Shown one piece after another: positions 516 to 23,790 of a DNA stretch of 64,000 nucleotides. A program made the translations under genes and the position numbers. Source of the DNA: Streptomyces puniciscabiei (GTDB taxonomy: Bacteria; Actinomycetota; Actinomycetes; Streptomycetales; Streptomycetaceae); assembly GCF_006715785.1 (NCBI RefSeq), contig NZ_VFNX01000001.1, positions 2,680,501 to 2,744,500 on the forward strand, written 5' to 3'. Below the pieces are notes generated by a model. It was not told the DNA's origin, did no database searches, and saw nothing but the letters and a program-made list of their open reading frames with translations. Position 1 is the stretch's first letter, and every line of letters starts with the position of its first letter.

Positions 516-1544
516 TCAGCCGATCACTCGGCTGGAGGTCGAGCGACGCAGACCGCGCGAAGCGCGAAGGTTCCTTGTCACCGTGAGCTTCTTGAGCCAG
601 CGGTCAGTTCCGTCGTACTTCGCGCGGAAGGGGCGCCGACCGTGCACCGCGGTGAAGTTGTCGACGTAGACGATGTCGCCCGGCTCGAGGACGACGTCGT
701 ACTCGGCGGCCATGAGCTTCTCGCAGATCTCCTTGAGCGCCTCCTCGGCTTCGGGGTCGGTCCCGACGGTCCTCATGTAGAAGGGGTCAAGCCGCAGGTA
801 AGGCTCATCGGGGTGACCGAAGAGGACGGCCACGGGCTCCGGGTTGTCCCGCAGCTTCTGGATCTCCTCCAGTCCGAAATGCGTTCCGTCGTCGGGGGTC
901 TGCCCCAGGTGCTCGGTGTCCGGGTAGATCACGTAACGGGGCTCGGAGAGGACCTTCTTGGCGTCTTCGCTGAGCTCGATGTCCCGGATCGAGGCGACCG
1001 TCGTGGGAACCCGGTCGAGGTTGCGGATGCCGAGCAGGCCGACGTAGTCGCATCGATAGGGGTGGAACGCGTCCTCGGTGTGCCATCCGAGCAGGACGTC
1101 ACTGCTGTGGCCGCTCTGCTCCTGCTCGACGCCCGGCAGGGGCAGGACGTTCTGGATCAGACTGCCGTTCTGGAGGGTCGACCAACCGAAGACCTCGCCG
1201 AGGCACATGCCGGTGAGGGCGAGGAAGATTTCCTCTCTCCGCAACGAGTCGGCATCGGCCCAGCTCGCCGGGGTCGGCTCGATCCCGTCCGGGTCCACGC
1301 GGAAGCCCCGGATCACGAACGCGCTGCCGGTCTCCGTGGTGCGGAAGTCGCTCAGTGCCTCACGCAGACCCGCGGGGACGCCGGCCAGATACCGCCATGC
1401 CAGGTCGTACAGGTCACCGGTTCTCGGGTCGTGCCCCGCCCGCACGATGTCGTCGATGACAGCGTCGAACGCCTCGTTGTCTTCTTCGCTCAGCACATAG
1501 GTCACGAGCGTCTTGGGGGGCATGAGTGTATCCGCCTCTCTCAT
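516..1544 (-). CDS. Fe(II)/2-oxoglutarate-dependent arginine hydroxylase, VioC-like
   Basis: Cytoplasmic non-heme iron oxygenase of 342 residues in the clavaminate synthase/VioC branch of the TauD fold. The facial triad is visible as WHTEDAFHPYRCDY (His155, Glu157) and AVHGRRPF (His301). R315 in DGTDRWLKK is the likely 2-oxoglutarate-binding arginine. Characterised relatives hydroxylate free L-arginine or enduracididine at C3 or C4 for viomycin- and mannopeptimycin-type products, so hydroxylation of arginine or a methylated arginine is the best guess; position and substrate state (free or carrier-bound) are inferred. Its ATG overlaps the TGA of the upstream NRPS gene by four bases, which implies coupled translation. 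A second ATG at 1523, preceded by a purine-rich GAGAGAGG, is an alternative start. Confidence 0.85.
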   Translation of the reverse strand: MREADTLMPPKTLVTYVLSEEDNEAFDAVIDDIVRAGHDPRTGDLYDLAWRYLAGVPAGLREALSDFRTTETGSAFVIRGFRVDPDGIEPTPASWADADSLRREEIFLALTGMCLGEVFGWSTLQNGSLIQNVLPLPGVEQEQSGHSSDVLLGWHTEDAFHPYRCDYVGLLGIRNLDRVPTTVASIRDIELSEDAKKVLSEPRYVIYPDTEHLGQTPDDGTHFGLEEIQKLRDNPEPVAVLFGHPDEPYLRLDPFYMRTVGTDPEAEEALKEICEKLMAAEYDVVLEPGDIVYVDNFTAVHGRRPFRAKYDGTDRWLKKLTVTRNLRASRGLRRSTSSRVIG

Positions 1545-4177
1545 TTAACGGCTTTGACGGCGACCATCGAGTCGGCCCACCAGTAGGTGCAGTCGTTCGG
1601 CGGTGCGAGATCGCGCACCACCTCGACCGAGAACGAGGAGAAATGCCTGAGCAGGCTGCGCTGGTGGGAGCGTCCGACGGTGTCGATCTCGTTGGTGTAG
1701 TAGGAGAAGACGCCTCCGGGCCGAAGATGGGCGGCGGCCGCTTCGAAGAAGTTCTCCGCGTAGTTGGTGCTGTGCACGACCGTGTCGCGATACTCGCGCT
1801 CGTTGGTCGGATAGGTGTCGAAGAAGATCGCGTCGAACTGTCCGAGCTGGTCGATCACCTCGTCCCAGAACCCGCGGACCAGCCGGATGTCGCGGTCCGG
1901 ATAGCCCTCGCGCCACCGCTCGAACGCGTCGATGACGTCTTCGTTCGGCTCGATGACCGTGTGGGAGGCCGCTCCGAACTCCTGGATGAAGGTGGCCGAG
2001 ATTCCCATGCCGAAGCCCACCTCCAGCACGTGTCCTCGGCTCTCGGTGACGTGGGCGGCCATCGCCCGCATGAGCGGACGCTCCCAGTCCTGCATGACCT
2101 CCTGGCCCTCGATGACCAGCTGCGAGGGTGTGTACCGGGCTCCGCTCCGGTCCCAGGACCCGTTGATGACAGGTCGGTCGACGCCGCGTTTCTGCGACGC
2201 GACGAGCCGGTCCAGATGCTCCAGGTCCGACTGGAATTCGCTGAGGGCGCGTTCCAGCATCCAGGTGCGGCGGTGGCCGATCGGCGTCCCGAGAAATCCT
2301 GGATCGCTGACCGAGACCGTCACGTCGAACGCCTCGGAACGCGTCTTGAAGATCTCCTTGGCGGCGGAACGGGCGGAGTCGCGCCGTACCAGGTCCTCCA
2401 CGAGTTCCGTGAGATCCGACAGACGGCTGTGCTGCATGAGTTGACGCAGCGGAACCCGGACCCCGAACACCGCGCCGATGCGCGCACTGAGCCGTGAGAT
2501 CTTCAGCGAATCGCCGCCGAGATCGAAGAAGTCGTCCTTCCCACTGGCCGGGGCAGTGCCCAGCAGCGACTCCCAGATTTCCGACAGCTCGGCTTCGGTC
2601 CGAGAGAGGGACCGGGCCCCCTTCGGGTCGGCGACGATACGTCCGGCGGCGGGCAGCGCCGCCCGGTCGACCTTGCCGCCGGGCGTGAGCGGCAGCGCGT
2701 CGAGCGTTGCCCACTTCGTCGGGACCATGTGGTCCGGGAGCCGCTTGCGGAGGTCCTCGGCGAGCTCCCGCAACTCCACCTCTCCCACGACGTAAGCCGT
2801 GATCGCGACCTCGTCGCGGTCCTTCTCGGCCTGGACGTGAGCCGCGCGGACGCCCGGATGAGTACGCAGAGCGTGCTCCACCTCGCCGAGCTCGACCCGG
2901 AAACCGCGGATTTTGACCTGGCCGTCCCGTCTGCCGTGGAACTCGAGAACGCCGTCCGACCGCCTGCGGACCATGTCCCCGGTCCGGTACATGCGTGCAC
3001 CGGACTCACCCGCGAACGGGTCGTGCAGGAAGTGGGCGGCGGTCTCCTCGGCGCGGTTCAGATAGCCGGCGGCGACTCGCGGCCCGGAGATGAACAGTTC
3101 GCCGACAGCACCGTCCTCGACGGGGCGCAGCTGTTCGTCCAGCACATGGATACGGGTTCCGGGGAGCGGCGACCCGATCGGGACCGACTCCGACGGGTTC
3201 TTCCCCTCGGCCATCGCCGGGGTGACCGGGTACACCGTGGCGGTGACAGTGCCCTCGGTGGGCCCGTAGCAGCAGATGACGTCCGCCGGAACGTCCTTGG
3301 CGAACCACTCCTGGAGGTCCCCGTAGCGGATGACGTCATTGCCGATGTTCAGCAGCCGCAGGGTGCGCAGCCGGGGATCGCGGCGTTCGACGTGGGCGAG
3401 CGTCTCGCGGAGGTAGGCCGGAGAGATGTCGGCCACCGTGACGCCCAGCTCCGCGATCTTGTCGGGGATCTCCTGCGGCATCCAGAAATCGGCGTCGGGC
3501 AGGACAAGCGTGGCCCCGCTGAGGACCGCGAGGCCGACCTGCTCCAGTGACACGTCGAAGACCGGGCCTGCCAGCATCAGGATCCGGTCGGCGGAGCTGC
3601 AGCCGTAGACGTCCCGGACCCTCGTCAGGTGGTGGAGGAACGCCTCGTGGCTCACCATCACGCCTTTGGGCGTGCCGGTCGAGCCCGACGTGTGGATGAC
3701 GTAGGCGAGATCAGGCGTATCAGGCACCGCCGCCGCGAACGCCGACAGACCTTCCGTACTCAGATCTCGGCCGACGCGGACGTGGACCTGTGCGGCGGCG
3801 ACGATCGACTGCCTGCGCTCGGCCGGCTGGTCCGGATCGATCGGGACGTGGGTCCCGCCGGCCCGGAACACGGCCAGGAGCGCCACGAAGTGGTCGATCG
3901 AGCGCGGGATCTCCACCGCGACCCGCGCTCCGTGCGCGACGCCCAGGTCTCGCAGACGGGTCGCGAGCCGCGTCGCCTGTGCGTCCAGCTCGGCGTAGGT
4001 CAGCACGGCGTCGCCATGCTGGATGGCCGGCGCGTCGGGTGTGAGCAAGGCGTAGTTCGCCAGGTGGTCGGCGAGGGTCCTGGGGACCGGCTGCCTCGGG
4101 CCGTCCAGGGGTGGTGCGCCACGTCGATCAGCGTCTGCCATCGTCCGGCGCTCCACGTGTGCATGAAGGGCTGACAA
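1541..4177 (-). CDS. Single-module NRPS: adenylation - carrier - guanidino-N-methyltransferase-like domain
   Basis: An 878-residue protein. Residues about 40-500 are an adenylation domain with IHTSGSTGTPKG (A3), CYGPTEGT (A5), YRTGD (A7), GRRDGQVKIRGFRVE (A8) and LPLTPGGKVDR (A10). A carrier domain follows with DDFFDLGGDSL, its phosphopantetheinyl serine near residue 556. The last 260 residues are a class I SAM methyltransferase: VLEVGFGMG near 719, then FDTYP, LRPGGVFSYYTN and PPNDCTYWW. These match guanidinoacetate methyltransferase more than ordinary NRPS N-methyltransferases. No condensation or thioesterase domain is present. Read with the downstream arginine hydroxylase, it probably loads arginine and methylates its guanidino group; the substrate is inferred. 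The TTG start at 4177 follows a strong AGGAGG with 7-base spacing; an ATG at 4141 is the alternative. No MbtH partner is seen. Confidence 0.85.
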   Translation of the reverse strand: MSALHAHVERRTMADADRRGAPPLDGPRQPVPRTLADHLANYALLTPDAPAIQHGDAVLTYAELDAQATRLATRLRDLGVAHGARVAVEIPRSIDHFVALLAVFRAGGTHVPIDPDQPAERRQSIVAAAQVHVRVGRDLSTEGLSAFAAAVPDTPDLAYVIHTSGSTGTPKGVMVSHEAFLHHLTRVRDVYGCSSADRILMLAGPVFDVSLEQVGLAVLSGATLVLPDADFWMPQEIPDKIAELGVTVADISPAYLRETLAHVERRDPRLRTLRLLNIGNDVIRYGDLQEWFAKDVPADVICCYGPTEGTVTATVYPVTPAMAEGKNPSESVPIGSPLPGTRIHVLDEQLRPVEDGAVGELFISGPRVAAGYLNRAEETAAHFLHDPFAGESGARMYRTGDMVRRRSDGVLEFHGRRDGQVKIRGFRVELGEVEHALRTHPGVRAAHVQAEKDRDEVAITAYVVGEVELRELAEDLRKRLPDHMVPTKWATLDALPLTPGGKVDRAALPAAGRIVADPKGARSLSRTEAELSEIWESLLGTAPASGKDDFFDLGGDSLKISRLSARIGAVFGVRVPLRQLMQHSRLSDLTELVEDLVRRDSARSAAKEIFKTRSEAFDVTVSVSDPGFLGTPIGHRRTWMLERALSEFQSDLEHLDRLVASQKRGVDRPVINGSWDRSGARYTPSQLVIEGQEVMQDWERPLMRAMAAHVTESRGHVLEVGFGMGISATFIQEFGAASHTVIEPNEDVIDAFERWREGYPDRDIRLVRGFWDEVIDQLGQFDAIFFDTYPTNEREYRDTVVHSTNYAENFFEAAAAHLRPGGVFSYYTNEIDTVGRSHQRSLLRHFSSFSVEVVRDLAPPNDCTYWWADSMVAVKAVK

Positions 4178-4877: not shown

Positions 4878-4946
4878 TGACGTAACGAGTTCTGAGTGAT
4901 CTGACAGTCGCCCTGCACGTACGTGAATCGATCTGACGAGTGGAAC

Positions 4947-6167
4947 GTGGAATCTCTGAAGCAGCCCGACTTCGGGCGCCGCCTCAAACGACTGAGAACC
5001 GAGCGACACCTGTCGCAGGCGGCCCTTGCCGGTGAAGGCATGTCGCCGGGTTATCTCTCCCGCCTGGAATCCGGCGCCAGGCCGCCCACCGCGCAGGTGG
5101 TCGCCTACCTCGCCCAGCGACTGGACATCACCGAGGAGGAGCTCGCAGGGGAGCCGGGCGACGTCAGTTCGCTCGCACGTACGCTCATCTCCGCGACCTC
5201 CGCGGGGTCCGACGCGGCAGTGGAGGCATTGGCGGAACAGGGGGCCCTCGATCCGGAGGAGGACCCGCTGCTTCGCGCCCAGGCTCTGTGGCTGCTGGCT
5301 GACGTGTCCGGACGGACCGGACGCCGAGAAGAGGAACAGGACTACCTGGAACGCCTCGTCTCCCTCAGCGATGACCTGGGGCTCGATGACGTGAGGTCCC
5401 GAGCCCGGTCCCGGCTGGGCCGCTCCCTCCGGGCGACGGGAGCGATGCGCCGGGCGAGGGAGATCGCGACAGAGGCCTTGGCGATCGCTCGCGGAACACC
5501 GCTGGACGCGCCCGAGACCGCCGGTGCCCTGATCACGATCATCTCCATCGAGGCCGAGGACGGGCAGCTCACCACCGCCCTGTCCTACGCGGACGAACTG
5601 CGCGACCTCGTCCCGGATGACAGGCTCGACCTGCGGGTCGAGGCACTGTGGGCGTCGGCGACCGTCCGGGTCCGGCTGGGCGACTACGCGACCGCGGAGC
5701 GGCACCTGGAAGAAGTGCTGCAGCTGCTCACCACTTACCACAATGCGAATCTATGGCTCCGCGCCAGGCTCGCGACCGCCTCCCTGTATCTGCAGCTGTC
5801 TCCCCCCAACACGGAGATGGCGCGCCGCCGGCTCGTCGAGGTCTCCCACGCGGTCGAAATCACCGGAAATCCCCTTTACCGCCAGGAAATGGAGCTTCTC
5901 TTCGCCTACCTGGCCTACCACGAAGGCCGGTTGGCCGACGCCAGGGCGACCTGTCAAGCCCTTGAGAAATCCACCCTGTTGCTCACCTACCGCGACAAAG
6001 CGCGCTTGGCGGCGCTCGGCGGCCTGCTCCTCATCAGTGAAGGAAAGACCACCGAAGGTACGGAGACTCTCGAGCAGGTGGCGTCGAGCGCCCGCGACGA
6101 GGGCAGCCTGGATCTCGCCGCCGACATCTGGCGCCTCTTGGCCAAGGCATTGGCAGGACTCCGATAG
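4947..6167 (+). CDS. XRE-family regulator with C-terminal TPR array (paralogue 1)
   Basis: A 406-residue cytoplasmic DNA-binding protein. Residues about 5-65 form a lambda-repressor-like helix-turn-helix (FGRRLKRLRTERHLSQ, then GYLSRLESGARPPTAQV). The rest is all helical with repeated tetratricopeptide-like pairs, for example ALSYADELRDLV, YATAERHLEEVL and RLADARATCQAL. The family commonly reads a peptide or protein signal through the TPR part. Its architecture and motifs closely parallel the protein at 8256-9521, including the same GAR-PTA helix end. The GTG at 4947 gives an N-terminus matching that paralogue (QPDFG / QPEFG); a GTG at 4923 would add eight residues. It diverges from the NRPS gene and converges with the CHAT gene 19 bases away, so it is the likely pathway regulator of the arginine arm. 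Confidence 0.82.
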   Translation: MESLKQPDFGRRLKRLRTERHLSQAALAGEGMSPGYLSRLESGARPPTAQVVAYLAQRLDITEEELAGEPGDVSSLARTLISATSAGSDAAVEALAEQGALDPEEDPLLRAQALWLLADVSGRTGRREEEQDYLERLVSLSDDLGLDDVRSRARSRLGRSLRATGAMRRAREIATEALAIARGTPLDAPETAGALITIISIEAEDGQLTTALSYADELRDLVPDDRLDLRVEALWASATVRVRLGDYATAERHLEEVLQLLTTYHNANLWLRARLATASLYLQLSPPNTEMARRRLVEVSHAVEITGNPLYRQEMELLFAYLAYHEGRLADARATCQALEKSTLLLTYRDKARLAALGGLLLISEGKTTEGTETLEQVASSARDEGSLDLAADIWRLLAKALAGLR

Positions 6168-6186: not shown

Positions 6187-8256
6187 TCAGGCCGGTACGA
6201 CGCCGAAGTGGCGGCGGGCCATCGTCACGGCGAGGTCCTGCACGGCGTACGCGGTCACGTAGTAGGCCTGGGGCGAGGTGCCGGCGGACAGACTCAGGGT
6301 GAACTCGGCCGCGCGGTCCTCGTCGGGTGTGACGCGGATCCTGTGCAGGGCCGGCTCCACCGCGCAGTCGGCGCGCAGGTAGCGCGGGACGTGGACGCCG
6401 AGGCGCAGCGGGCCGGTGCGGGCGCCGCGAACCACCAGCCGTACCCGGAGGGTGCCGCCCTGGGGCACCTCGTCGTCGGCGTGGATCCGCACCGTCGGCG
6501 CGCCGGGCAGGCGCAAGGAGACGTCCCCGCAGCGCGGGCAGACGACGCACTCGGTGTCGAGCGCGGTGGGCACCAGGGCCCTGCGGGTGTACCGCTCGGC
6601 GGGTCGGCCGCAGTGGCACAGCACCCGCGCCGCGGAGGACGCGTCGAGGCGGCTGCGGTCACCGAAGTGGGCCGGGTAGTCGCTGATCTCGTTCTCCGGG
6701 TCCTCGGCGATCCGTGCGGCGATGGCCTGGTCCAGGGACTGCAGGTCGTCCAGGAGGCCGCGCATCGTGCCGGTCTGGTCCCGGACCGCCAGTGAGCGGC
6801 GGGTGACCAGTCCCTCGACCTTGGCGGCGAGCTTGCCCAGCCGGGGACGCAGCGGGTTGCCGGGGGGCAGCAGCCCGCCGGCGAGGTAGGCGGTGAGGCG
6901 AGCCGAGGCGGTGAGGAGCAGCGGCCCGGGGTCCACGGACGGCGGCTCGGGTAGGGGGCCCGCGTCGTCGGCGGCCATGCCGAAGTGGAGATAGGCGGGG
7001 AAGGGCTGGACGGTGGAGATGCCGGCGTTCAGGCTCGGGGCGGAGGAAGCTCCGCGGAGGGCGGCGTCCATCCAGACCCGGTTCTCGACGCGGTCGGAGT
7101 CGTGGATGGTGACCGCGGCGACGACGTCCTTGGCGGTGCCGTCGATCGCGTTGAGCATCAGCTGGAACTTCGGGTCGTAGATGGCCGCGTCGGCGAAGGG
7201 AGCGTTGTTGCACGAGCTGAGGACGATCTCGGCGGCGCGGACCTCGCGCAGCTGGATCAGCTTGTCCATGGGCTTGTAGCAAGTGGGGCCGTAGGCGCAG
7301 GCCGGGCCGAGAAGCCCTGGGGCGCGCGGGGCGGTCTCGTTCAGGCCGCACACGGTGAAGTCGGCGAGGTTGATCGAGTCGTCCTTGCCGTGGCCCTGGA
7401 AGAGGACCCGTCTCCAGCGGGTGCCGAGGATCTCGGTTCTGATGTCCTCGCTCTCCACGTCGCGTTCGTCGCGCAGGTGGATGCCCGCCGGGGCCGGGGG
7501 GCGGTCGGTGGAGGTGTACAGGCCCAGCCGCTGGACGTCCGCGGCGATGCCGGCGTACTGCTTGGCGGTGAACCAGGCGAGGGACGCAGCGTCACGGCCG
7601 GTGAGGAAGGTGATCGGCGTGTCCGCGCGGGCGGCGGCCAGCAGGGCGGTCCACAGCGGGTCGAGGGTGAAGTGCTCGTACAGGCCGGCGACCAGCAGGG
7701 AACGCGCGGGGGCGGGACCGGCTGCGTCCACCGTGCCCCCGTCCCGGCCCCCCTCGAAGGTGTCGTCGTCCTTCGCCGTGTCCCGGACGCCAGGCCCGTC
7801 CGCCGGGCCGGCATCCGGACGGCTCTCCGCCGCGCCCGTGGTCCGGGGCCCGTCCGTGGGGGTGCCGTCGCCAGGCCCCTCCCCCTCGTCCGGCGCCCGG
7901 CGTCGCGTGCCGGGTCCGTCGGAGAGCACGGCTGCGAGTTCCTTCTCGTCGAGCCACTCCTCGGCCAGCGGTTCGATCAGTGCCGCGAGCCCGGCGGGCA
8001 GGGTGCCGGGGCTCAGCAGGACGCCGCATGCGTGGGGCGCCGGGCGGCGCACACCCGCGTACACGGTGGCTGCGCGCCCGGCGGAGGCGACGAGGTCTGG
8101 GCGGCCACCGGTCCACACCGGAACGGCCGCGGGCGAGGGGTCTGCGAGGAACCGCTCGACGGCCGCGGTGTACGAGGCCGGGTCGTCCACCGTCAGGAAG
8201 GGAGAGGAGGCCGGGACCGCCGTCCCGTCGGCGTCAGCGTGGAGCGCGGACTGCAT
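6187..8256 (-). CDS. Caspase-fold CHAT-like protease with zinc ribbon and C-terminal beta domain
   Basis: A 689-residue protein with no signal peptide or membrane segment. The core contains RVLFQGHGKDDS with candidate catalytic His289, and EIVLSSCNNAPFAD with candidate Cys349. This is the His-Gly / Ser-Cys spacing of the clan CD (caspase/CHAT) fold. An Asp/Gly/Pro-rich stretch at about 145-200 separates it from an N-terminal region of unknown function. Residues about 547-578 hold a CxC...CPRC zinc-ribbon-like set, followed by a beta-rich segment that may be Ig-like. Its ATG shares one base with the stop of the upstream XRE-TPR gene (TGATG), so the two are co-translated. I infer regulatory proteolysis, perhaps acting on or gated by a TPR partner; the fold is assigned from motifs only. 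Confidence 0.65.
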   Translation of the reverse strand: MQSALHADADGTAVPASSPFLTVDDPASYTAAVERFLADPSPAAVPVWTGGRPDLVASAGRAATVYAGVRRPAPHACGVLLSPGTLPAGLAALIEPLAEEWLDEKELAAVLSDGPGTRRRAPDEGEGPGDGTPTDGPRTTGAAESRPDAGPADGPGVRDTAKDDDTFEGGRDGGTVDAAGPAPARSLLVAGLYEHFTLDPLWTALLAAARADTPITFLTGRDAASLAWFTAKQYAGIAADVQRLGLYTSTDRPPAPAGIHLRDERDVESEDIRTEILGTRWRRVLFQGHGKDDSINLADFTVCGLNETAPRAPGLLGPACAYGPTCYKPMDKLIQLREVRAAEIVLSSCNNAPFADAAIYDPKFQLMLNAIDGTAKDVVAAVTIHDSDRVENRVWMDAALRGASSAPSLNAGISTVQPFPAYLHFGMAADDAGPLPEPPSVDPGPLLLTASARLTAYLAGGLLPPGNPLRPRLGKLAAKVEGLVTRRSLAVRDQTGTMRGLLDDLQSLDQAIAARIAEDPENEISDYPAHFGDRSRLDASSAARVLCHCGRPAERYTRRALVPTALDTECVVCPRCGDVSLRLPGAPTVRIHADDEVPQGGTLRVRLVVRGARTGPLRLGVHVPRYLRADCAVEPALHRIRVTPDEDRAAEFTLSLSAGTSPQAYYVTAYAVQDLAVTMARRHFGVVPA

Positions 8257-9521
8257 CAGCGGGTGACTCCCTCGTGGAAGCCCGAGGGCTCCGGGAGGCT
8301 GGGGGCGGCCTGTCTCTCCGAGGCCCAGGCCAGGGTCTCGGCCAGGGTGCGCCAGATCTCGGAGGCCAGGTGGACGTTGGAGGCGTTCTGGGCCTCCTGG
8401 GCGAGTTCCTCGATGCGGCGGACGCCGGCTTCGCGGTCGCCCTCCAGGATGCGGATCTGGTGGGCGAGGACCTCAAGCCGGATCCGGTCGCGGAAGGTCA
8501 GCTGCGGCAGGGCGTCCGTGAGCTGCTCGCACAGCGTCTTGGCTAGCACCAAGTCGCGCTGGTGAAAGGCGAGATGGGCCTTGATGACGAGAAGTTCCTG
8601 GCGGTGCAGCGGGCCTCCGAAGAGACCCAGGGCGTGTTCGGCCTCGGTCAGCCACTGCTGGGCCTCGGTCACCCGGCGCGGGATCATCTGCAGGTACAGG
8701 GACGAGGCGGCCAGCCGCAGCCGCAGCATCAGGTCGCCGTGGCTCGGAAGTTCGGCCAGGGCCCGCTGCAACAGCTGGGCGGCGCCCGGGTAGTCACCCT
8801 GGCGGATGCGTACGTTCGCGGCCGACCACAGGGCTTCGGCGCGCAGCACGGTGGGCAGGACGTCGATCGGTTCCAGCATCTGGTCGGCGAGCCGGCGCGC
8901 CTCCGTGATCAGGCCCGACTCCGCCTCGACCGACAGGAGCACCAGTTGGGCGCGGACGGTGTCCGCCACGGGGACCGCCCCGTTGTCGGCGGTGCGGAGG
9001 GCGTTCTGGGCGACGGCGCGGGCCTCCTCGATGTCACCGACGGCACGCAGGCAGCGGGCGAGGAGAGTGCGGGAGCGCACCTGGAGGGTGGGCACCTCCA
9101 GGCGGTCGCTCAGCTCGGTGAGTTCGCGTGCCGCGGCGAGTTCGTCCTGGCGCTCGCCCTGCTTGGCGTGCAGCTGGGCCAGCTTCCACAGGGACAGCCA
9201 GCGCAGGGAGAGATCCTCGCCGCTCTCCGCCTGGACGGCCTCCCCGAGCAGCCGGATGGCGTCGTCGGTGTCGTCCGAGGAACTGGCGGACGCGAGGGCC
9301 CGGCCCAGCGGGGAGGTGTGGATGCCTTGCAGGACGGACGCGGGGACGCCCAGTCGCTGGGTGAGGTGGTCGAGCACCTTGGCGGTCGGGCGCCGGGCCC
9401 CGGACTCCAGGCGTGACAGATACGCGGTGGACATGCCGCCCTCGGCAACCTCGGCCTGGGACAGGCCCCGCTCCTGCCGGAGGGCCTTCAATAGCTGTCC
9501 GAACTCGGGTTGTTCGAGCAC
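8256..9521 (-). CDS. XRE-family regulator with C-terminal TPR array (paralogue 2)
   Basis: A 421-residue protein with an N-terminal helix-turn-helix (FGQLLKALRQERGLSQ, AYLSRLESGARRPTAKV) and a long helical repeat region, for example YPGAAQLLQRALAEL, ITEARRLADQML and LVLAKTLCEQL. It is the paralogue of 4947-6167. Translation runs directly into the CHAT-like gene through a TGATG junction, so regulator and protease are made together. A palindromic TTGNCAA site lies 63-80 bases upstream of its ATG, consistent with autoregulation. Alternative roles include a peptide-responsive regulator of the Rap/NprR kind. The family assignment is firm; the signal is unknown. Confidence 0.82.
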   Translation of the reverse strand: MLEQPEFGQLLKALRQERGLSQAEVAEGGMSTAYLSRLESGARRPTAKVLDHLTQRLGVPASVLQGIHTSPLGRALASASSSDDTDDAIRLLGEAVQAESGEDLSLRWLSLWKLAQLHAKQGERQDELAAARELTELSDRLEVPTLQVRSRTLLARCLRAVGDIEEARAVAQNALRTADNGAVPVADTVRAQLVLLSVEAESGLITEARRLADQMLEPIDVLPTVLRAEALWSAANVRIRQGDYPGAAQLLQRALAELPSHGDLMLRLRLAASSLYLQMIPRRVTEAQQWLTEAEHALGLFGGPLHRQELLVIKAHLAFHQRDLVLAKTLCEQLTDALPQLTFRDRIRLEVLAHQIRILEGDREAGVRRIEELAQEAQNASNVHLASEIWRTLAETLAWASERQAAPSLPEPSGFHEGVTR

Positions 9522-10475: not shown

Positions 10476-11576
10476 GTGACAGCCCTGACCCATACGCCCC
10501 TGCCTTCGACCGAGCCGTCCCGGGCCGGTTCCCTGCGCACCCGCGCGGCCGGCGAGGACGACCGAGACTTCCTCAGGTCCCTCTTCACCAGCACGCTCAG
10601 CCCGTTCTACGACGGTGACCACGCGGCGCACGCCGATCGCGTCCTCGATGCGCACCTCGCCTCCGGACGCGACCCGCTCGGTCACTTCTCCCACTCCCAG
10701 CGCACCTTCATCCTGTGTTCGGACGACACATCCGACGCCGAGCGGCTGGGTGTGCTGCACATGGCGGTCAAGCGTCAGGGCACGGTGAAGATCAGTCCGC
10801 TGATCCTCGTGCCGGAGCACCGCAGTCGCTCCGGGCTCGGCACCCTGCTGCTGCGCGCGGCGGAGGACTTCGCGCGCGAGGCCGGCGCCCGGCAGCTCTA
10901 CTGCACGGTCGCCGCCGCCAACACCGCCGCGCTCAACTTCTTCCTCGGGCACGGCTTCGTGCTGGCGGGCAGCGCGCCCGGACAGTACAAGCCGGACAGC
11001 GTCGAGCACATGCTCTACAAGGACCTGGCCCTGCACACGGAGCCTTCCGGGGACGACCGCACCGGCGCCGTGAGCGGCACCCGCATCCGCCCCTTCCGGC
11101 CACAGGACGCGCCCGGGCTGCGTGAGCTGGTGCTGCGCGCGATGCAGCCCGCGTACCGGGGTGTGAACGCGGACTGGGTGGGGGCGCTGATCGCCGGGCA
11201 CCACCGGCGCCACGACGGTGATCCCCACCAGAAGTCCAAGGTCATCCACGTGGCGGTGGACGAAACGGGCACCTTGCGCGGAGTGGCCGCCGCCGGCCGG
11301 AAGAAGGGCCTGTCCGTCAAGGTGATGCCGCTGTGCGCGGACCACCCGGCCGTCCTCGCCCAGCTCCTGGACCAGCTGCCCGACCTGCACCGCGGGCTCG
11401 GCCGCAAGCTCTACACCCACCAGCCGCCGGATCCCGCCGTCACCGCGCTCATGCAGAGCCGCGGCTGGTCCCTGGAGGGCCTGATGCCGACCGCGTACCA
11501 CCCCGACACCTGCACCGTTCAATGGGGCCTGATCCTGCCCCCAGCGCCACACCGCACCGGAGACACACATGAGTGA
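10476..11576 (+). CDS. Two-domain GNAT acetyltransferase
   Basis: A 366-residue protein. The N-terminal half is a clear GNAT domain: a core strand then LVPEHRSRSGLGTLLLRAAE, the acetyl-CoA pyrophosphate loop, and a following NTAALNFFLGHGF helix. The C-terminal half begins TRIRPFRPQDAPGL, also GNAT-like, but lacks the R/Q-x-x-G-x-G/A loop and may be a degenerate partner domain. The GTG at 10476 follows an AAGGTGG and gives the best start; longer upstream frames have no ribosome binding site. It heads the nucleoside operon and overlaps the next gene by eight bases. Likely roles are self-resistance by acetylating the product or acylation of an intermediate; neither is proven. Confidence 0.75.
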   Translation: MTALTHTPLPSTEPSRAGSLRTRAAGEDDRDFLRSLFTSTLSPFYDGDHAAHADRVLDAHLASGRDPLGHFSHSQRTFILCSDDTSDAERLGVLHMAVKRQGTVKISPLILVPEHRSRSGLGTLLLRAAEDFAREAGARQLYCTVAAANTAALNFFLGHGFVLAGSAPGQYKPDSVEHMLYKDLALHTEPSGDDRTGAVSGTRIRPFRPQDAPGLRELVLRAMQPAYRGVNADWVGALIAGHHRRHDGDPHQKSKVIHVAVDETGTLRGVAAAGRKKGLSVKVMPLCADHPAVLAQLLDQLPDLHRGLGRKLYTHQPPDPAVTALMQSRGWSLEGLMPTAYHPDTCTVQWGLILPPAPHRTGDTHE

Positions 11577-11946
11577 CCTGGACCAGTACGCCGACGAACT
11601 GCACTCCTTCGTGGCCGCACGCGGCTGGGACGCCTTCCAGAACCCCAAGAACCTGGCGATGGCCCTCGGCGGCGAGAGCGGGGAACTGCTGGCGCTTCTG
11701 CAGTGGCTCACCCCGGAGGAAGCCGCGGCACGCCCCTTCGAGGACCCCGAGTTCCGCCGCGAACTCGCCCACGAGCTGGCCGACATCCTCAACTACCTGC
11801 TGCGGCTGTCCCGTTCGGCCGGTATCGACCTGCTCGCAGCCGCCCGCGAGAAGCTCGCCCTCAACGAGCAGCGGTACCCGGTGGAGCTGGCACGCGGTAA
11901 CGCCCTGAAGTACGACCGGCTGGCCGAGGCGGGTGAGCAGGCATGA
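11569..11946 (+). CDS. MazG-like nucleoside triphosphate pyrophosphohydrolase
   Basis: A 125-residue all-alpha NTP pyrophosphatase. The metal-binding pattern is visible as E36SGE39 and E69LADILNY (Glu69, Asp72), the EExxE...ExxD signature of the MazG/dCTPase-like family. These enzymes cleave an NTP to the monophosphate plus pyrophosphate. Its place between a GNAT and a CMP-hydrolase-type gene, overlapping both, suggests that it makes CMP from CTP as feedstock for free cytosine. That link is inferred from context; house-cleaning of non-canonical nucleotides is the other possibility. Confidence 0.82.
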   Translation: MSDLDQYADELHSFVAARGWDAFQNPKNLAMALGGESGELLALLQWLTPEEAAARPFEDPEFRRELAHELADILNYLLRLSRSAGIDLLAAAREKLALNEQRYPVELARGNALKYDRLAEAGEQA

Positions 11947-12617
11947 GCGGCACCACTTCCCTGCCCCCCACGTCCGCTGCCGCGGCACACACCGCGGCCG
12001 GCCAGCGCATCGGTGACGGCCTCACCGGTGGCCTGCGTGTCTTTCTCGCCGCGCCGTTCGTGCAGTTCATCGATCCGGCCGATGGCGTGGTCCGTCCCGA
12101 GTGGCGGCAGCGGCTGTCGGCCTTGCGTGAGGCACTTCTCGACGCCGGGCACGCGGTCTTCAACGCCCACCACAACGAGGGGTGGGGCGAGTGGGGTCTG
12201 CCCCCACAGGAGTGCGTCCCCTCCGACTTCCGCGCGATGCAGTGCGCCGACCTGGTGCTCGCCTACCCGGGGACCCCGCCCTCCACGGGCGTCGCGCTCG
12301 AACTGGGCTGGGCCTCCGCGCTGCGCAAGCCCGTCGCCCTGCTGCTCGACCCCGGCACCACCTACAGCCCGATGATTTCGGCACTCGGCCAGATCTCCCC
12401 GGTGCTGCAGCTGCCGTTCGACGGCAGCTGGTCCGCGCAGTGCCTCGACCGCGCGGTCCGCACCGCCCTGGACTGGGCCACCGGTCTCGGTGTCCAGCCG
12501 GGGCCGTGGAGCGCACCGGAGCTGGACCCGGCCCTGGCCTACCACCGGCACGCGACGGACCACCCCGACCCGCCCGAGGCGGAGCCGGCCGCTGCGGAAA
12601 CGGTGGTGCAGGCATGA
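11943..12617 (+). CDS. Nucleoside 2-deoxyribosyltransferase-fold CMP hydrolase (BlsM/MilB type)
   Basis: A 224-residue protein of the nucleoside 2-deoxyribosyltransferase fold. After a flexible N-terminus come LRVFLAAPF and the conserved STGVALELGWA, with the catalytic glutamate at residue 120, and an Asp in CADLVLAYPG. In blasticidin S and mildiomycin biosynthesis, proteins of this fold hydrolyse the N-glycosidic bond of CMP or hydroxymethyl-CMP to release the free base. No thymidylate-synthase-like CMP hydroxymethylase is seen in the window, so unmodified cytosine is the likelier product. The ATG overlaps the MazG stop by four bases and its stop overlaps the next ATG by four, so the genes are tightly coupled. 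Confidence 0.8.
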   Translation: MSGTTSLPPTSAAAAHTAAGQRIGDGLTGGLRVFLAAPFVQFIDPADGVVRPEWRQRLSALREALLDAGHAVFNAHHNEGWGEWGLPPQECVPSDFRAMQCADLVLAYPGTPPSTGVALELGWASALRKPVALLLDPGTTYSPMISALGQISPVLQLPFDGSWSAQCLDRAVRTALDWATGLGVQPGPWSAPELDPALAYHRHATDHPDPPEAEPAAAETVVQA

Positions 12618-13900
12618 CGACTTTTCTGCGGACACTCGCCACGGCCGCTGGCCGCGCCAAGCCGCCCACCACCGTGACCGTCGCCCTGTGCGGTGTCGAG
12701 TTCGGCTGGGGCAGCGCCGGAAAGCTCGGTGCGATCGTGCACGCGCTGCGGGCGAAGCTCGGCGACCGCGTGCGCTTCGTCGGGCTCGGCTCGCGGCTCG
12801 GCCGCGAGATCGTGCGCGGCCACGGTGTCGAAGAGTGGCACGACGTCGACCTCGGGGATGCGCGGGCGCTGCGCGCCCTGGTGGACGAGCGGTCCCTGGA
12901 CGCCGCCGTGTGTGTCCTGGACCGGGCCGCCGCGGTGGCGCTGGAGGACGCAGGCTGCCCCGTCGTGTTTGTCGACAGCCTGCCGTTCCTGTGGACGAAG
13001 GACGATCTGGACAGCCTGCCGCTGCGAGCCAGCGCCTACTGCGCACAGCTCGTTCCCGGGCTGCCGGGTCCAGCCTGGCCCGTGCTGGCCCGTGTGGAGA
13101 ACCTGCGCTGGGTCGAGTCGGTGGTTGTCCCCGGGCCGGTTCGGACAGGACCCGAGATGCGGCGGGCCGGCGAACGCCGCGCGGTGGTCAGCCTGGGCGG
13201 CCTGCTGTCACCGCTGCTGGACGATCCCTCCGCCTACCTGTCCCTGGCGGTGCCGGCCGCGCTCGGCGCTCTCGCCGCGTGGGGCACCCGGCAGGTCACG
13301 CTGTGCGGCAACGTGCCCGAGGGACTGTTCGACGACATCACCGTTCCGGCGGGCCTGGACGTACGCAGCGGCGCCCTCGGCCACCAGGGCTTCCTGGCCG
13401 AGATCGCCGAGGCCGACGTCCTGCTCACCTCCCCCGGTCTGACGACGCTGCTGGAGACCAGCACGCGCGGGGTGCCCGCGGTGTGCCTGCCCCCGCAGAA
13501 CATCAGCCAGATCCTCAACGCCTCCTTCTACGCGCAGGCCACCGAGGCGCCGGTCGCCGAGTGGCCCGAGGAGGTGTTCCGCGCCCAGGAGGTGCTCGAC
13601 GCCCGCCTGGTCACGGCATCCGACGACGTCACGGACGGCGGTGGATCGCCCGGCGAGGACGCCGCCCTGGAACTGATCTACGGCGGGATCGCGCGCGCGG
13701 CCCGCACCCCCGCGCCGGTCCGCGCGGCCCTGACCGAGCGCATCGGCGCCTGCCTCGCCGCGGTCGAGCGGCAGCAAAGCCGATGGACCGCCCTGGCCCG
13801 GCTGGTCGGCACCGGCGGCGCGGCCCAGGTCGCGGACATCGTGCTGGCCACCGCGGCTCGCCACGGCACCAGTCACCGCCCCGCCGACCTCCCTTCCTGA
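12614..13900 (+). CDS. Cytosylglucuronate (CGA) synthase, GT-B type
   Basis: A 428-residue cytoplasmic glycosyltransferase of the GT-B fold. It has an N-terminal Rossmann half (TVALCGVEFGWGSAGKLGAI), a middle RRAVVSLGGL strand, and the donor-binding C-terminal half with ADVLLTSPGLTTLLE and VPAVCLPPQNISQ. This pattern fits the BlsD/MilC family, which joins free cytosine to UDP-glucuronic acid to give cytosylglucuronic acid, the first committed nucleoside of blasticidin-type antibiotics. It directly follows the CMP hydrolase gene (ATGA overlap) and precedes the radical SAM gene by 14 bases, the order expected for that pathway. Base and sugar specificity are inferred from family and context. Confidence 0.82.
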   Translation: MTTFLRTLATAAGRAKPPTTVTVALCGVEFGWGSAGKLGAIVHALRAKLGDRVRFVGLGSRLGREIVRGHGVEEWHDVDLGDARALRALVDERSLDAAVCVLDRAAAVALEDAGCPVVFVDSLPFLWTKDDLDSLPLRASAYCAQLVPGLPGPAWPVLARVENLRWVESVVVPGPVRTGPEMRRAGERRAVVSLGGLLSPLLDDPSAYLSLAVPAALGALAAWGTRQVTLCGNVPEGLFDDITVPAGLDVRSGALGHQGFLAEIAEADVLLTSPGLTTLLETSTRGVPAVCLPPQNISQILNASFYAQATEAPVAEWPEEVFRAQEVLDARLVTASDDVTDGGGSPGEDAALELIYGGIARAARTPAPVRAALTERIGACLAAVERQQSRWTALARLVGTGGAAQVADIVLATAARHGTSHRPADLPS

Positions 13901-13914
13901 AAGGCTCACCGATC

Positions 13915-14907
13915 ATGCAGGAACGACACCGCTATCTGTTCATCCGTGTGCTGGAGGCATGCAACGCCGACTGCTTCATGTGCGAGTTCGCCCTGTCCCG
14001 GGACACCTACCGGTTCAGTTTGGAGGACTTCGCCGAACTGCTCCCGGAGGCGGTGGCGAAGGGGGTGGGCTACGTCCGCTTCACCGGCGGCGAGCCGCTG
14101 ATGCACCGGGACGTCGTCGATCTGGTGCGCATGGGCACCGAGCACGGCATGCGCATGTCGCTGATCACGAACGGCATGTTCCTGCCCCGCTTCGTCGACC
14201 GGCTCGCCGACGCCGGGCTGGCCCAGGTGATCGTCAGCCTGGACGGCTCCTCCGCCGCCACCCACGACGTCTACCGCCGCTCCCCCGGCATGTTCGACAA
14301 CGGCCTGGAAGGGCTGCGCCGGGCGAAGGAGCTGGGCATCATCCCGCGCGTCAACTCCGTCGTGGGACCGCACAACTTCGCGCAGATGCCCGAGCTGCAG
14401 CGGGTGCTGACCGACCTCGGCGTCCAGCAGTGGGAGCTGTCCGCGATCAAGCTGGACCGTGAGATCCGCTATCCGTCGGCGGAGGAGGTCATCGCCACCT
14501 GCGAGCCCATCTACACCGCCGACCCGGCCACCACGCTCGTACCGCTCGGCAAGCGCTTCTACGGCGACACGCCCGAGGAGCAGAAGGCCTTCTTCGAGGA
14601 GTCCCTGCCGCCGCGCGCCTCGGAGCCCCTGTGCCTGGTCACCGACGACGTGATCTACCTGGACGGCAAGAACGGCCGGATGTTCTCGTGCAGCTGCCTT
14701 CCGCACAAGGAGGGGGACGAGGGCCCCGGCGGTGCGCCGCTGCGCACCGGCGACGGCAAGGTCATGCTCGACAGCCCGGTCTTCCGCACCCACGCGGACC
14801 TCTTCAAGCAGCAGGGTCCGACGATGTGCGGCGGCTGCTCCGCGACCGCCGCCGGCTACAGCGACGACCTCGCCCGCATGGGCACCGTACCGGCCTGGAG
14901 CTATTGA
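13915..14907 (+). CDS. Radical SAM enzyme, cytosylglucuronate decarboxylase type (BlsE-like)
   Basis: A 330-residue radical SAM protein. The [4Fe-4S]-SAM cysteines are in EACNADCFMCEF (Cys16, Cys20, Cys23; CX3CX2C), with the glycine-rich RFTGGEPL motif after it and an LITNG strand. Near the C-terminus CSCLPH and MCGGCSAT supply further cysteines that could bind a second cluster or zinc. BlsE of blasticidin biosynthesis decarboxylates the C5 carboxylate of CGA by radical chemistry; position immediately after CGA synthase makes that the best assignment. An AAGG follows the preceding stop and supports the ATG at 13915. Confidence 0.82.
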   Translation: MQERHRYLFIRVLEACNADCFMCEFALSRDTYRFSLEDFAELLPEAVAKGVGYVRFTGGEPLMHRDVVDLVRMGTEHGMRMSLITNGMFLPRFVDRLADAGLAQVIVSLDGSSAATHDVYRRSPGMFDNGLEGLRRAKELGIIPRVNSVVGPHNFAQMPELQRVLTDLGVQQWELSAIKLDREIRYPSAEEVIATCEPIYTADPATTLVPLGKRFYGDTPEEQKAFFEESLPPRASEPLCLVTDDVIYLDGKNGRMFSCSCLPHKEGDEGPGGAPLRTGDGKVMLDSPVFRTHADLFKQQGPTMCGGCSATAAGYSDDLARMGTVPAWSY

Positions 14908-14962: not shown

Positions 14963-15901
14963 ATGTCCTCACCCACCACCGCCCCGCATCCCGCCCCGCC
15001 GCGGCTGCGCGTGCTCGCCACCGCGCGACCCGCGCTGGAGTCCCAGGCCGCACTGCGCCACGTCAGCGCCCACCTCACCGAAGTCGAGCTGACCGGTCAG
15101 CCGGACGCAGGCCCCGCCCCCGGCGCCGCCGTGGTCTGCGACGACGACGTGCTCGCCGCGCGCCTGAGCGCCTCCGGCGTGCCCGTCGTGTTCGTCGCCT
15201 CCGGCGGCCCCCCGCCCGGCGACACCTGGCCACCGTCGGCGGTCCGCTGCCTGCACCAGCCCGGCTGGCTGGGCGGGCAGCGCGCCAAGGGCGTGCACAA
15301 CGTCGGCACGATCGCCCCGCCCCGGGCCGCCCGGGCGCGCGCGGCGCGCGGCGCGGTCGTCCAGCTGTCCACACCGGATCTGCACCCCGACGACCACGCG
15401 GCCGTCGCCCGGGCCGGCGCGACCCTGCGCGCCGCCGTGGAAGCGGCACAGTACGACGGGAAACCGCTGCTCGGTGTGGTCCTGGACGCGCCGGTGCCCG
15501 CACGCTCCGCCCTACTGTCCGCGGCCGGGGAGGACGCCGGCGCGCTGCCCGTCGCAGGGGTCGAGGAGGCCGCCACGGAGCGGCTGCTGGCCGAGGCGTC
15601 GCTGCTGGTCACCTCGCCTCTGCTGACTGCCGTCAACCAGGCGCACGCCGCTCGGGTCCCGCTGCTGCTGCTCCCGGCGCTGGACGCGCACCAGGCGAGC
15701 CGGCTCGCCGGGATCACGGATGCCGCCGGCGTCGAGGTGCTCGACGCGGCCGCACCGGACGCCTCGGCCGACCGCGCCGTCCGAGGTGCCGACCCGCTCT
15801 GGAGCCGCGTTTCCCGGGCACTGGAGCACGCCGGCGACGACCGGCGCGGCGCCCAGCGCGTCGCCCGTCAGGTCCGGCAGCTCCTGCTCGCCCCGTTCTG
15901 A
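14963..15901 (+). CDS. CGA-synthase-related protein, shortened paralogue
   Basis: A 312-residue protein resembling the CGA synthase three genes upstream-side in pattern. GVPVVFVASGG matches CPVVFVDSLP, ARGAVVQLSTP matches RRAVVSLGGL, and ASLLVTSPLLTAVNQ with VPLLLLPALDAHQ matches ADVLLTSPGLTTLLE with VPAVCLPPQNISQ. It is about 115 residues shorter and lacks the glycine-rich N-terminal loop of the full enzyme. It may be a non-catalytic partner, act on a later sugar, or be an enzyme losing function. The reading frame is intact with normal codon bias and a GGAG ribosome binding site nine bases before the ATG, so it is probably expressed. Confidence 0.7.
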   Translation: MSSPTTAPHPAPPRLRVLATARPALESQAALRHVSAHLTEVELTGQPDAGPAPGAAVVCDDDVLAARLSASGVPVVFVASGGPPPGDTWPPSAVRCLHQPGWLGGQRAKGVHNVGTIAPPRAARARAARGAVVQLSTPDLHPDDHAAVARAGATLRAAVEAAQYDGKPLLGVVLDAPVPARSALLSAAGEDAGALPVAGVEEAATERLLAEASLLVTSPLLTAVNQAHAARVPLLLLPALDAHQASRLAGITDAAGVEVLDAAAPDASADRAVRGADPLWSRVSRALEHAGDDRRGAQRVARQVRQLLLAPF

Positions 15902-15953: not shown

Positions 15954-17117
15954 ATGCTGCGTCCCTTCCCCTACGGCGCCAACTACCTCTCCCTGGAGGA
16001 CACCCCCGAACTGCGCCGGTCCCTCGACAACAAGGTCCTCTTCCGGTACAGCGCCCCCGCGCCGAGCAACGCCGACCTGCTGGAGGAGTACGCCGCCGAG
16101 CGGCTCGGCGCGGGGCGGGCGCTGACCGTGCCGAACGGCACACAGGCCCTGCGTGTGGCGCTGATGGGCACCCGACCGCGGGTCGGCGACCCTGTGTACA
16201 TACCGGCGGTCACGTTCGTCGCGGTGGCCGGTGCCGTGCTGTCCTGCGGACTGGTTCCGGTCCTCGTCGACGTCGACGAACGGTTCGGCCTGGACGCCTC
16301 GCTGCTGCCCGCGGACGCGGAGCGAGTGGTGGTGGCGCACATGGAGGGCACCGTCGTCGACCTGCCCGAGCGGGTGCCGTACCTGATCGAGGACACCGCG
16401 CAGGCCATGGGCGGACGCCACGCGGACGGGCGGCACGCCGGGACCGTCGGCTACGCGGGCACGTTCAGCTTCCACCACGCCAAGATCCTCACCTCCGGCG
16501 AGGGCGGCCTGGTCGTGGTCCGCGACCCCGCCCATTGGGACGTCCTGCGCTCCTACACCGACCACGGCTCGGCCCGCGAGCAGGGCAAGTACCCGGGCTG
16601 GAACCCCGGCGCGTTCTACGGCGAGAACCTGTGTGCCAACGAGGCCGTGGCCGCCGTACAGCTCCAGCAGTTCCGGCGGCTGGACGAGATCCTCTCCTCT
16701 CTGGACCGGCACTACGCCCTGACGCTGGAGGCGCTCGGCGAGCGCCCGGACGTCACCGTGGTCGCCAAGCGCCCCGGTGACGTCAAGACCAGCGTGCGGC
16801 TGCTGCTGGAGTCCCGGCACCTGCGAGACCGGGCCATGGAACGGCTGGAGGAACGGGGGCTGCCCTGCTGGACTCTGGACAAGTACCTCCTGCCCGAGCA
16901 CCCGGTGGTGGCGAGCCGCGCCTCGCTGTACACGGATGGGTTCCCGTGGAACCTGGCCGACGGCGACGACCGTTACGCGCCATTGAGCTGGGACGGTTTC
17001 ACCGCAACCCACGACAGGCTGAACCGCACCCTGTGCATACCGCTCACCCCGGAACTCGACGAGGCGGAACAGATCCTGCTAACCAAGGAGATCGCCGCCG
17101 TCGTCGCCGCGCTCTGA
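15954..17117 (+). CDS. DegT/DnrJ/EryC1/StrS PLP-dependent sugar aminotransferase (BlsH-like)
   Basis: A 387-residue PLP enzyme. Visible features are LTVPNGTQAL (phosphate loop), LIEDTAQAMGG (Asp147 under the pyridine nitrogen) and FSFHHAKILTSGEGG with Schiff-base Lys177. Members aminate keto-sugars for antibiotic and cell-surface sugars. Following CGA synthase and a radical SAM decarboxylase, it should install an amino group on the hexuronic-acid-derived sugar, probably at C4', as in blasticidin S. A decayed second copy lies at the left edge of the window. The ATG at 15954 has a CGGAAG upstream. Confidence 0.85.
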   Translation: MLRPFPYGANYLSLEDTPELRRSLDNKVLFRYSAPAPSNADLLEEYAAERLGAGRALTVPNGTQALRVALMGTRPRVGDPVYIPAVTFVAVAGAVLSCGLVPVLVDVDERFGLDASLLPADAERVVVAHMEGTVVDLPERVPYLIEDTAQAMGGRHADGRHAGTVGYAGTFSFHHAKILTSGEGGLVVVRDPAHWDVLRSYTDHGSAREQGKYPGWNPGAFYGENLCANEAVAAVQLQQFRRLDEILSSLDRHYALTLEALGERPDVTVVAKRPGDVKTSVRLLLESRHLRDRAMERLEERGLPCWTLDKYLLPEHPVVASRASLYTDGFPWNLADGDDRYAPLSWDGFTATHDRLNRTLCIPLTPELDEAEQILLTKEIAAVVAAL

Positions 17118-18456: not shown

Positions 18457-18546
18457 GACTCCACCGCCCTCCGCCCACCCAAGGAGTGTGCACGACCGGT
18501 CCCCGTCCCTCCCCGCTGCCGCCTCCGCCCAGGCGCCGGACGGGTC

Positions 18547-18771
18547 GTGGCGGCCACCCCGTTCGAGGAACTCCCGCGGCTGCCCGGCGGGCTCGGCGGG
18601 CGCGTGCCGCTCGTGCCGCTCGTGGCGGGCGCGGAGGTGACACCGCAGCGCGCCTCCCCCGCATCGTCGGGCCATGTGCGCGTGCAGGGCGGCGACGTGG
18701 CCGAAACCATCTCCCGGATGCAAGCCGTGCTGGACCATTTCCGGGCGGAGGCCCTCGACCAGGCGGCCTGA
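18547..18771 (+). CDS. Possible small protein between exporter and ABC-F gene
   Basis: A 74-codon GTG-started frame with strong GC third-position bias, ending in an amphipathic helix (ETISRMQAVLDHFRAEAL). No family is recognised, the ribosome binding site is weak (ACGGGTC), and the opposite strand is also open here. It is listed because the 476-base gap at 18457-18932 holds nothing else convincing. Confidence 0.25.
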   Translation: MAATPFEELPRLPGGLGGRVPLVPLVAGAEVTPQRASPASSGHVRVQGGDVAETISRMQAVLDHFRAEALDQAA

Positions 18772-18932
18772 GCGGTTTGCCCCTGCGGCGGCCCTGGGCA
18801 CCCCCGGCCACCGTCGGCCCGGAAAAAAATGAGCAGCCGTCGACCAGGCCCGCCTGGCACCGTGGTCCGGGGCCGCCCGCCCACACAGCGCACCGGCGCC
18901 GTACCCGAACAGCAGACAAGGACACAGGAAAG

Positions 18933-22203: not shown

Positions 22204-22420
22204 ATGAAGCCCGACAACACATCGAGCCTTGTCGGCGACGTTCGCCCGACCCCCTTCATGGAGGAGATGGCACCGAGCCTGGAGCACGGAGAGGTCGTGC
22301 TGAGGCTGCCGCTGCCGGAGGACGTCGCCCTGAAGATGATCTCGGTCAGGGACGTCGGCCTGGTCGCCGCCGCGCTCCTGCCCGACACCGCGGAGGCACG
22401 GGCGGCGGCGATGGACTTCC
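22204..22420 (+). pseudogene. NmrA-like NAD(P)-binding protein, internal fragment
   Basis: The plus frame reads VRPTPFMEEMAPSLEHGEV, then LPLPEDVALKMISVRDVGLVAA, a pattern typical of the middle of NmrA/atypical SDR proteins (VRPxxFMEN...MIAVDDIG). Neither the N-terminal Rossmann glycine motif nor a proper C-terminus is present. The frame runs on into unrelated sequence, so this is a gene fragment. Confidence 0.5.
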
Positions 22421-22667
22421 GGGAGACGATCAGCCCGTCCTCGACGGGCAGGATGACGGTGTTCTCGGGCATCGTGCACTCCTGTTCTCTGGGCTTCCTC
22501 TTCTCTGGGCTTCCTCCCGCTCAGCCGGAGCGAGAGGTCTTGAGCGGATCCGCTGTGCCGGTTCTTGGCAGCGCGGATCCGGAGCGGCTCCGGCCCGCCG
22601 GGGCGGGCACGAGCGCGCGCCGTTCCGCCCGGGGCCCTTTTCGGTACGCCGGGGGGGTCTGTGGGTG

Positions 22668-23785: not shown

Positions 23786-23790
23786 CTCAG

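Follow-up and report, generated by a model that had tools for sequence, protein, structure and literature searches.

We analysed a 64000-nucleotide stretch of the Streptomyces puniciscabiei genome (9.15 Mb), hereafter the window (G000:C1:2680501-2744500; contig NZ_VFNX01000001.1), in which a gene for a 689-amino-acid protein with a predicted caspase/gingipain fold lies between two genes for XRE-TPR regulators, inside a cluster of nucleoside antibiotic genes (Table 1). A previous reading of this DNA, made from the letters alone (the sequence-only reading), had taken the protein for a CHAT-like protease that forms a switch with one of the regulators. The open reading frames lie where that reading had put them, and the arrangement it described as co-translation is present: the stop codon of regulator A (TGA, 8258-8256) and the start codon of the caspase-fold gene (ATG at 8256) read together as TGATG, with one base common to both, and GAGGGAG stands just upstream of this ATG, within the regulator A coding sequence. 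The adjoining second paralogue it had pointed out is regulator B, which shares 41% identity with regulator A and converges on the caspase-fold gene, leaving a gap of 19 bases. HTH and TPR domains were matched in both regulators; there are seven regulator matches in the genome, and only A and B are full-length.

Table 1. Features of the window, in window positions.
Feature	Position	Strand	Remarks
Fe(II)/2-oxoglutarate arginine-type beta-hydroxylase (GntD/VioC-like)	516..1544	-	NF041363 389 bits (cut-off 345); PDB relatives include L-arginine beta-hydroxylases
Adenylation-carrier-methyltransferase (A-T-MT) fusion	1541..4177	-	MT related to BlsL-type methyltransferase, 33% over 141 columns
XRE-TPR regulator B	4923..6167	+	convergent paralogue of regulator A
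Caspase/gingipain-fold protein, 689 aa	6187..8256	-	proposed aminoacyltransferase, Pur6 sister family; BlsK position (presumed letter)
C-terminal Ig-like beta-sandwich, residues about 584-689	6190..6507	-	
Putative zinc-ribbon-like CxC...CxxC (C547, C549, C573, C576)	6529..6618	-	residue conservation
Cys349 codon	7210..7212	-	after strand at residues 341-347; aligns with Pur6 Cys326
Three-cysteine stretch between His and Cys	7279..7350	-	C303 7348-7350, C320 7297-7299, C326 7279-7281
His289 codon	7390..7392	-	after strand at residues 281-287; aligns with Pur6 His260
XRE-TPR regulator A	8256..9521	-	one-base overlap with caspase-fold gene
GNAT acetyltransferase	10476..11576	+	weak resemblance to streptothricin acetyltransferase
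MazG-like protein	11569..11946	+	below Pfam cut-off
BlsM/MilB-type CMP hydrolase	11943..12617	+	PDB 5vto Blasticidin M, E 5.6e-24
Cytosylglucuronate (CGA) synthase	12614..13900	+	TIGR04467 373.6 bits (cut-off 300)
Cytosylglucuronate decarboxylase, BlsE type (radical SAM)	13915..14907	+	TIGR04466 648 bits (cut-off 400)
CGA synthase-related protein	14963..15901	+	TIGR04469 185 bits (cut-off 150)
DegT/DnrJ/EryC1 aminotransferase	15954..17117	+	
MFS transporter	17170..18456	+	
Two-domain ABC ATPase, presumably ABC-F-like	18924..20552	+	Pfam ABC_tran, 2 stretches

The 689-residue protein has no match in Pfam, PADLOC or NCBIfam at E values up to 1, and sequence searches of the PDB returned nothing significant. 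A caspase fold is nevertheless supported: AlphaFold2 models one, and the protein aligns to gingipains K and R (peptidase family C25), the nearest solved fold; the sequence-only reading had set the presence of such a core beforehand as its test. Among the 50 matches listed from Foldseek alone, most were beta-sandwich domains and none was a caspase-fold entry; the gingipain match arose from VIA re-alignment of Foldseek's own candidates. We found at least 106 homologues in a large protein set (the 8000 candidates sharing most words were scored); the named ones are actinobacterial and are labelled hypothetical or, for some, CHAT domain-containing. Alignment A1 took in 42 rows; alignment A2, from which the counts below are taken, has 101 rows, namely the window protein and 100 of the 106 homologues (P0001, two residues off the window protein, was replaced by it, and P0044, P0046, P0091, P0094, and P0106 were dropped as short or partial). 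About 60 residues (119-180) have low model confidence, and two counted positions there are gapped in 99 of the 101 rows.

The residues expected of a caspase-like active site are conserved, as that reading had predicted: Cys349 is invariant (101/101), and His289 is found in 99 of the 101 rows, with asparagine in two. Three cysteines between them that it had not remarked on (C303, C320, and C326) are each cysteine in 101/101. Its zinc ribbon and beta domain can also be recognized, in ribbon cysteines 547, 573, and 576 (101/101) and 549 (100/101, with one valine), and in the beta-sandwich that ends the protein. The tests of fold and of His/Cys conservation thus support the caspase core; neither of them bears on the switch idea. 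The protein and the CHAT proteases (TPR-CHAT/Craspase, SAVED-CHAT) have a caspase-like fold in common, but the window protein has no Pfam or PADLOC match, no TPR was found within it, and its neighbours are biosynthetic; since the three databases return nothing at E up to 1, CHAT is, as far as the model goes, a fold resemblance and no sequence-family assignment. Gingipains differ too: the window family has three extra conserved cysteines and a ribbon, both common to Pur6 (see below), and the window protein is encoded among biosynthetic genes.

Strong matches to the caspase-fold protein (E below 1e-100) occur in 20 of 392 Streptomyces genomes. To describe its gene neighbourhoods we used 46 named loci, i.e., those reached by four peptide patterns in genome contigs, each flanked by no more than 10 kb on either side. 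Searched at E 1e-8, 34 of the 46 loci (28 of the 40 long ones) contain at least one CGA-pathway gene, and 37 have ATP-grasp or adenylation genes near the caspase-fold gene. The order CGA synthase, BlsE, CGA synthase-related protein, aminomutase, DegT, ATP-grasp, MFS, caspase-fold gene, methyltransferase is complete and collinear in 23/46, and in 28/46 the first gene detected after the caspase-fold gene on its strand is the methyltransferase. The published blsL primers encode an initial MEQSTG and a final CFYKD, both of which the methyltransferase of locus L032 has. In blasticidin S biosynthesis, BlsL is the methyltransferase (PMC5572114), while BlsD is the CGA synthase and BlsE the decarboxylase (accessible text of PMC3715490); the name BlsM for the CMP hydrolase is taken from PDB entry 5vto. 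If the letters follow gene order, the six detected genes fill F to K and the caspase-fold orthologue would carry the letter K. BlsK is unmentioned in the accessible portions of PMC3715490, PMC4664946, PMC5572114, and PMC11784345.

The gene is also found in other settings. Four loci (L048, L049, L050, and L054) form a cluster type with adenylation, hydroxylase, and ATP-grasp genes, and three (L010, L044, and L047) have nonribosomal peptide synthetase, ketosynthase-like or ATP-grasp pieces beside the caspase-fold gene. Another cluster type, in L009, L012, L016, and partly L046, contains LysX-like, BtrH_N, sulfotransferase-like, and DegT genes, with ArgB/ArgC-like genes in the first three. Blasticidin-like gene sets with a caspase-fold gene are present in metagenome-assembled genomes labelled Proteobacteria (L053) and Ardenticatenales (L051).

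The family proved to be related to Pur6, the amino acid-aminonucleoside synthetase of puromycin from Streptomyces alboniger (CstB is its cystocin counterpart). Alignment against the Pur6 profile with hhalign gave an E value of 4.8e-7 over 535 columns (probability 92.5, about 19% identity), and 30 shuffles and the reversed profile scored far lower. Along the sequence both families run through the same succession of His, three further Cys, catalytic Cys, helical segment, Cys ribbon, and beta-sandwich. Among solved folds, gingipain comes nearest to either family, and L079/L080 bridge the two. In a joint alignment of 62 rows (42 of the 101 A2 rows, four distant paralogues, and 16 Pur6-family proteins), which also served for the tree, Cys349, C303, and C326 are conserved in 62/62, C320 in 61/62, and His289 in 59/62. 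In the tree the two families fall into separate clades. Pur6 is also the longer protein, having an additional beta region at about 426-516, and it belongs to puromycin clusters whereas the window family belongs to cytosylglucuronate or other clusters. Because its location is not in a puromycin-type cluster, we file the window protein as a sister family and not as Pur6 proper.

The search that found Pur6 gave matches at E 0.01 in 15 of 382 genomes: two are the query or its close kin, two are Pur6-like (E 1.8e-6 and 6.2e-4), and 11 are others (4.0e-4 to 0.009) that may be chance. The second Pur6-like match is no stronger than these 11, and its identity rests on its cluster and a separate check. 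A mixed-profile search gave two matches only, both of the L079 branch. This distant paralogue (L079 and L080, or more widely L083 and L084; 711 and about 692 amino acids) follows a TPR protein without HTH, in a cluster of obscure type with radical SAM, alcohol-dehydrogenase-like, and ABC transporter genes.

The predicted fold, the conserved dyad, the cluster membership, the gene position, and the profile homology to Pur6 together suggest that the caspase-fold protein is probably a biosynthetic aminoacyltransferase rather than a regulatory protease, working in a cluster for a cytosine nucleoside of blasticidin/arginomycin-like type. Its orthologue at the BlsK position of blasticidin-type clusters is our leading candidate for the leucyl-demethylblasticidin S (LDBS) synthetase. 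Cys349, activated by His289, would take an aminoacyl group as a thioester from a donor that is most likely an aminoacyl-tRNA (for the window enzyme, a carrier-bound amino acid may serve instead), and an amine on the nucleoside antibiotic, or on a precursor of it, would then attack this thioester and form the amide; we infer the chemistry, the tRNA as donor, and leucine as the amino acid. For BlsL to methylate demethylblasticidin S efficiently, the compound must first be leucylated, which also reduces its inhibitory activity about 20-fold; according to the same study, the LDBS synthetase activity had not been demonstrated (PMC5572114). The step would both protect the producer and prepare the substrate for N-methylation. 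The orthologue in blasticidin-type clusters is the natural candidate for it because its gene directly precedes the blsL-type gene, no assigned function was found for it, and it is homologous to an amino acid-nucleoside synthetase. Our literature search found no enzyme assignment for the leucine-adding step in the texts within its reach, which left out most subscription journals, one of which may hold it.

A gingipain-like fold with conserved His and Cys would also suit a pathway peptidase, which would trim an aminoacyl group from the nucleoside for maturation or resistance. The published cluster, however, encodes everything that leucylblasticidin S (LBS) requires, and the leucine of LBS is hydrolysed off by PepN, encoded outside the cluster (accessible text of PMC4664946); moreover, the step to which the relative Pur6 is assigned forms an amide. 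We consider such a peptidase quite unlikely.

Several observations weigh against the aminoacyltransferase interpretation. The Pur6 profile match is good but not overwhelming, and for the intermediate L078 it is weak (probability 71). His289 is replaced in the two A2 homologues with asparagine and, by aspartate, in one distant paralogue. The letter K was counted along the gene order and not read from the S. griseochromogenes record, and a search of the window together with the 20 kb left of it found no match at E 1e-5 to the arginine 2,3-aminomutase of L013. The Pur6 reaction itself is a proposal, as the accessible part of PMC11641026 presents it, and our literature search found no enzyme assay for Pur6 or the caspase-fold family. 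With a median pI of 5.7 and a net charge of -12 (n = 108, the 106 homologues and two of the L079 branch), the family is acidic, so tRNA binding is not favoured; Pur6-family proteins range from pI 5.7 to 9.2 (n = 16). tRNA genes are not a recurrent part of the clusters: ARAGORN found one in 6 of the 46 loci, none of them for leucine, and cluster tRNA genes were dropped as a clue to the donor. The mildiomycin cluster has a putative tRNA-dependent aminoacyltransferase of its own, MilH, likewise proposed to load an amino acid onto a cytosylglucuronate-derived nucleoside, but this is serine and involves the carrier protein MilI (accessible text of PMC11784345; the two were compared by description only, and kinship may or may not hold). 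Finally, the window cluster has two other amino-acid-activating proteins, an ATP-grasp ligase and the adenylation-carrier protein.

Because of these two proteins, the donor could be a carrier thioester. With the fold and the cluster role unchanged, the amino acid would then come from a carrier protein such as the A-T-MT protein and not from an aminoacyl-tRNA; besides the window, 11 of the 46 loci have a relative of the adenylation-carrier protein near the gene, and the acidity of the family and the lack of a recurrent tRNA gene fit this as well. But 35 of the 46 loci keep the caspase-fold gene with no adenylation-carrier homologue within reach (E 1e-8), and puromycin-like clusters are described as having no detected adenylation or ATP-binding activation domains (accessible text of PMC11641026). 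We regard a carrier donor as unlikely, though worth keeping in mind. The idea that the caspase-fold protein is the sole amide former of the window cluster was rejected, given the ATP-grasp ligase just left of the window.

The sequence-only reading had favoured a regulatory switch, in which the protein cleaves or senses one or both XRE-TPR regulators. The one-base overlap with regulator A and the convergent regulator B speak for it, as do the TPR protein that precedes the distant paralogue in two genomes and locus L017, where a regulator A homologue lies directly upstream of the caspase-fold gene. Among the 20 genomes with a strong caspase-fold match, a regulator A homologue was detected at E 1e-20 in 10: five have it no more than about 2.2 kb from the gene (G000, G193, G059, G237, and G117), two have a weaker one 15-23 kb away (G175 and G265), and three have it elsewhere. 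Three of the four loci in which an ATP-grasp gene precedes the caspase-fold gene also have such a regulator near (L070, L072, and L073, but not L071). Across the 46 loci, however, a homologue of either regulator was detected at E 1e-8 in only three (L017, L048, and L054; a looser search added a weak partial one in L050), against 34 with CGA-pathway genes. Conversely, 64 of 382 genomes carry a regulator A homologue at E 1e-40, and in 58 of these it is not near a caspase-fold gene, so the counts of gene context do not support TPR-CHAT pairing as a general rule. In a sibling cluster (L088 in G063), 87-99% identical to that of the window in most shared genes, all that is left of the caspase-fold gene is a remnant some 160 residues long and interrupted by stops, with regulator A intact and the nucleoside genes kept; since the assembly has ambiguous bases and a 100-N gap nearby, this may partly be an assembly fault. 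The protein has no PADLOC match either, and a switch of this kind appears highly improbable. A defence system was rejected: no PADLOC family matched the caspase-fold protein at E up to 1, and the PADLOC matches of the regulators are to their HTH parts. The XRE-TPR regulators are best read as cluster-situated regulators of one cluster sub-type, and nothing in the data requires a regulatory role for the caspase-fold protein.

Taking the aminoacyltransferase interpretation further, the chances seem about even that several nucleoside-antibiotic families are built by one class of caspase-fold amide synthetases that draw on aminoacyl-tRNA, with Pur6 acting in puromycin, the BlsK-position enzyme in LDBS, and the window enzyme in a hydroxyarginine-type cytosine nucleoside. 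If so, this fold class would stand beside the aminoacyl-tRNA synthetase (aaRS)-like, GNAT, cyclodipeptide synthase (CDPS), and PEARL enzymes, using the thiol chemistry of a protease for synthesis instead of cleavage. A review from 2026 on natural-product enzymes that depend on aminoacyl-tRNA covers these four groups; its abstract and section list name no caspase-fold class, and its accessible text does not mention blasticidin, puromycin, Pur6 or caspase (PMC12945691). Pur6-type synthases are stated to be specific for puromycin-like antibiotics (accessible text of PMC11641026); our results would extend the Pur6 superfamily to dozens of other clusters, provide a candidate gene for leucine addition to demethylblasticidin S, and tie this blasticidin step to the enigmatic Pur6 step of puromycin.

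As the sequence-only reading had recognized, the gene lies within an antibiotic cluster. The window contains the CGA synthase, CGA decarboxylase, and CMP hydrolase that define a blasticidin-type (CGA) cluster and that it shares with the blasticidin S cluster (BlsD, BlsE, BlsL, BlsM), and just left of it are genes for a thioesterase, a second GNAT, and an ATP-grasp ligase (48% identical to the L013 ATP-grasp) of the same kind as in blasticidin-type clusters. It differs from the blasticidin S cluster proper in having a VioC/GntD-type hydroxylase and the A-T-MT fusion; because no aminomutase was found, its product is expected to differ from blasticidin S. We describe it as a new-looking member of the blasticidin/mildiomycin/arginomycin type. 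The ABC-F-like ATPase would be the expected self-protection against a ribosome-targeting product.

The GNAT gene at 10476-11576 and a related one (L055, 17006-18052) flank the cluster on either side. Between the MFS and ABC-F genes, window positions 18433-18741 show 37% identity over 108 columns to the C-terminal part of the ATP-grasp ligase, possibly a remnant. Beyond the ABC-F gene the window has one tRNA-Thr, at 23790-23864; beside it, at the right edge of the cluster, a long open reading frame (22204-23661) contains the C-terminus of a phage-integrase-family protein, perhaps marking an old integration site.

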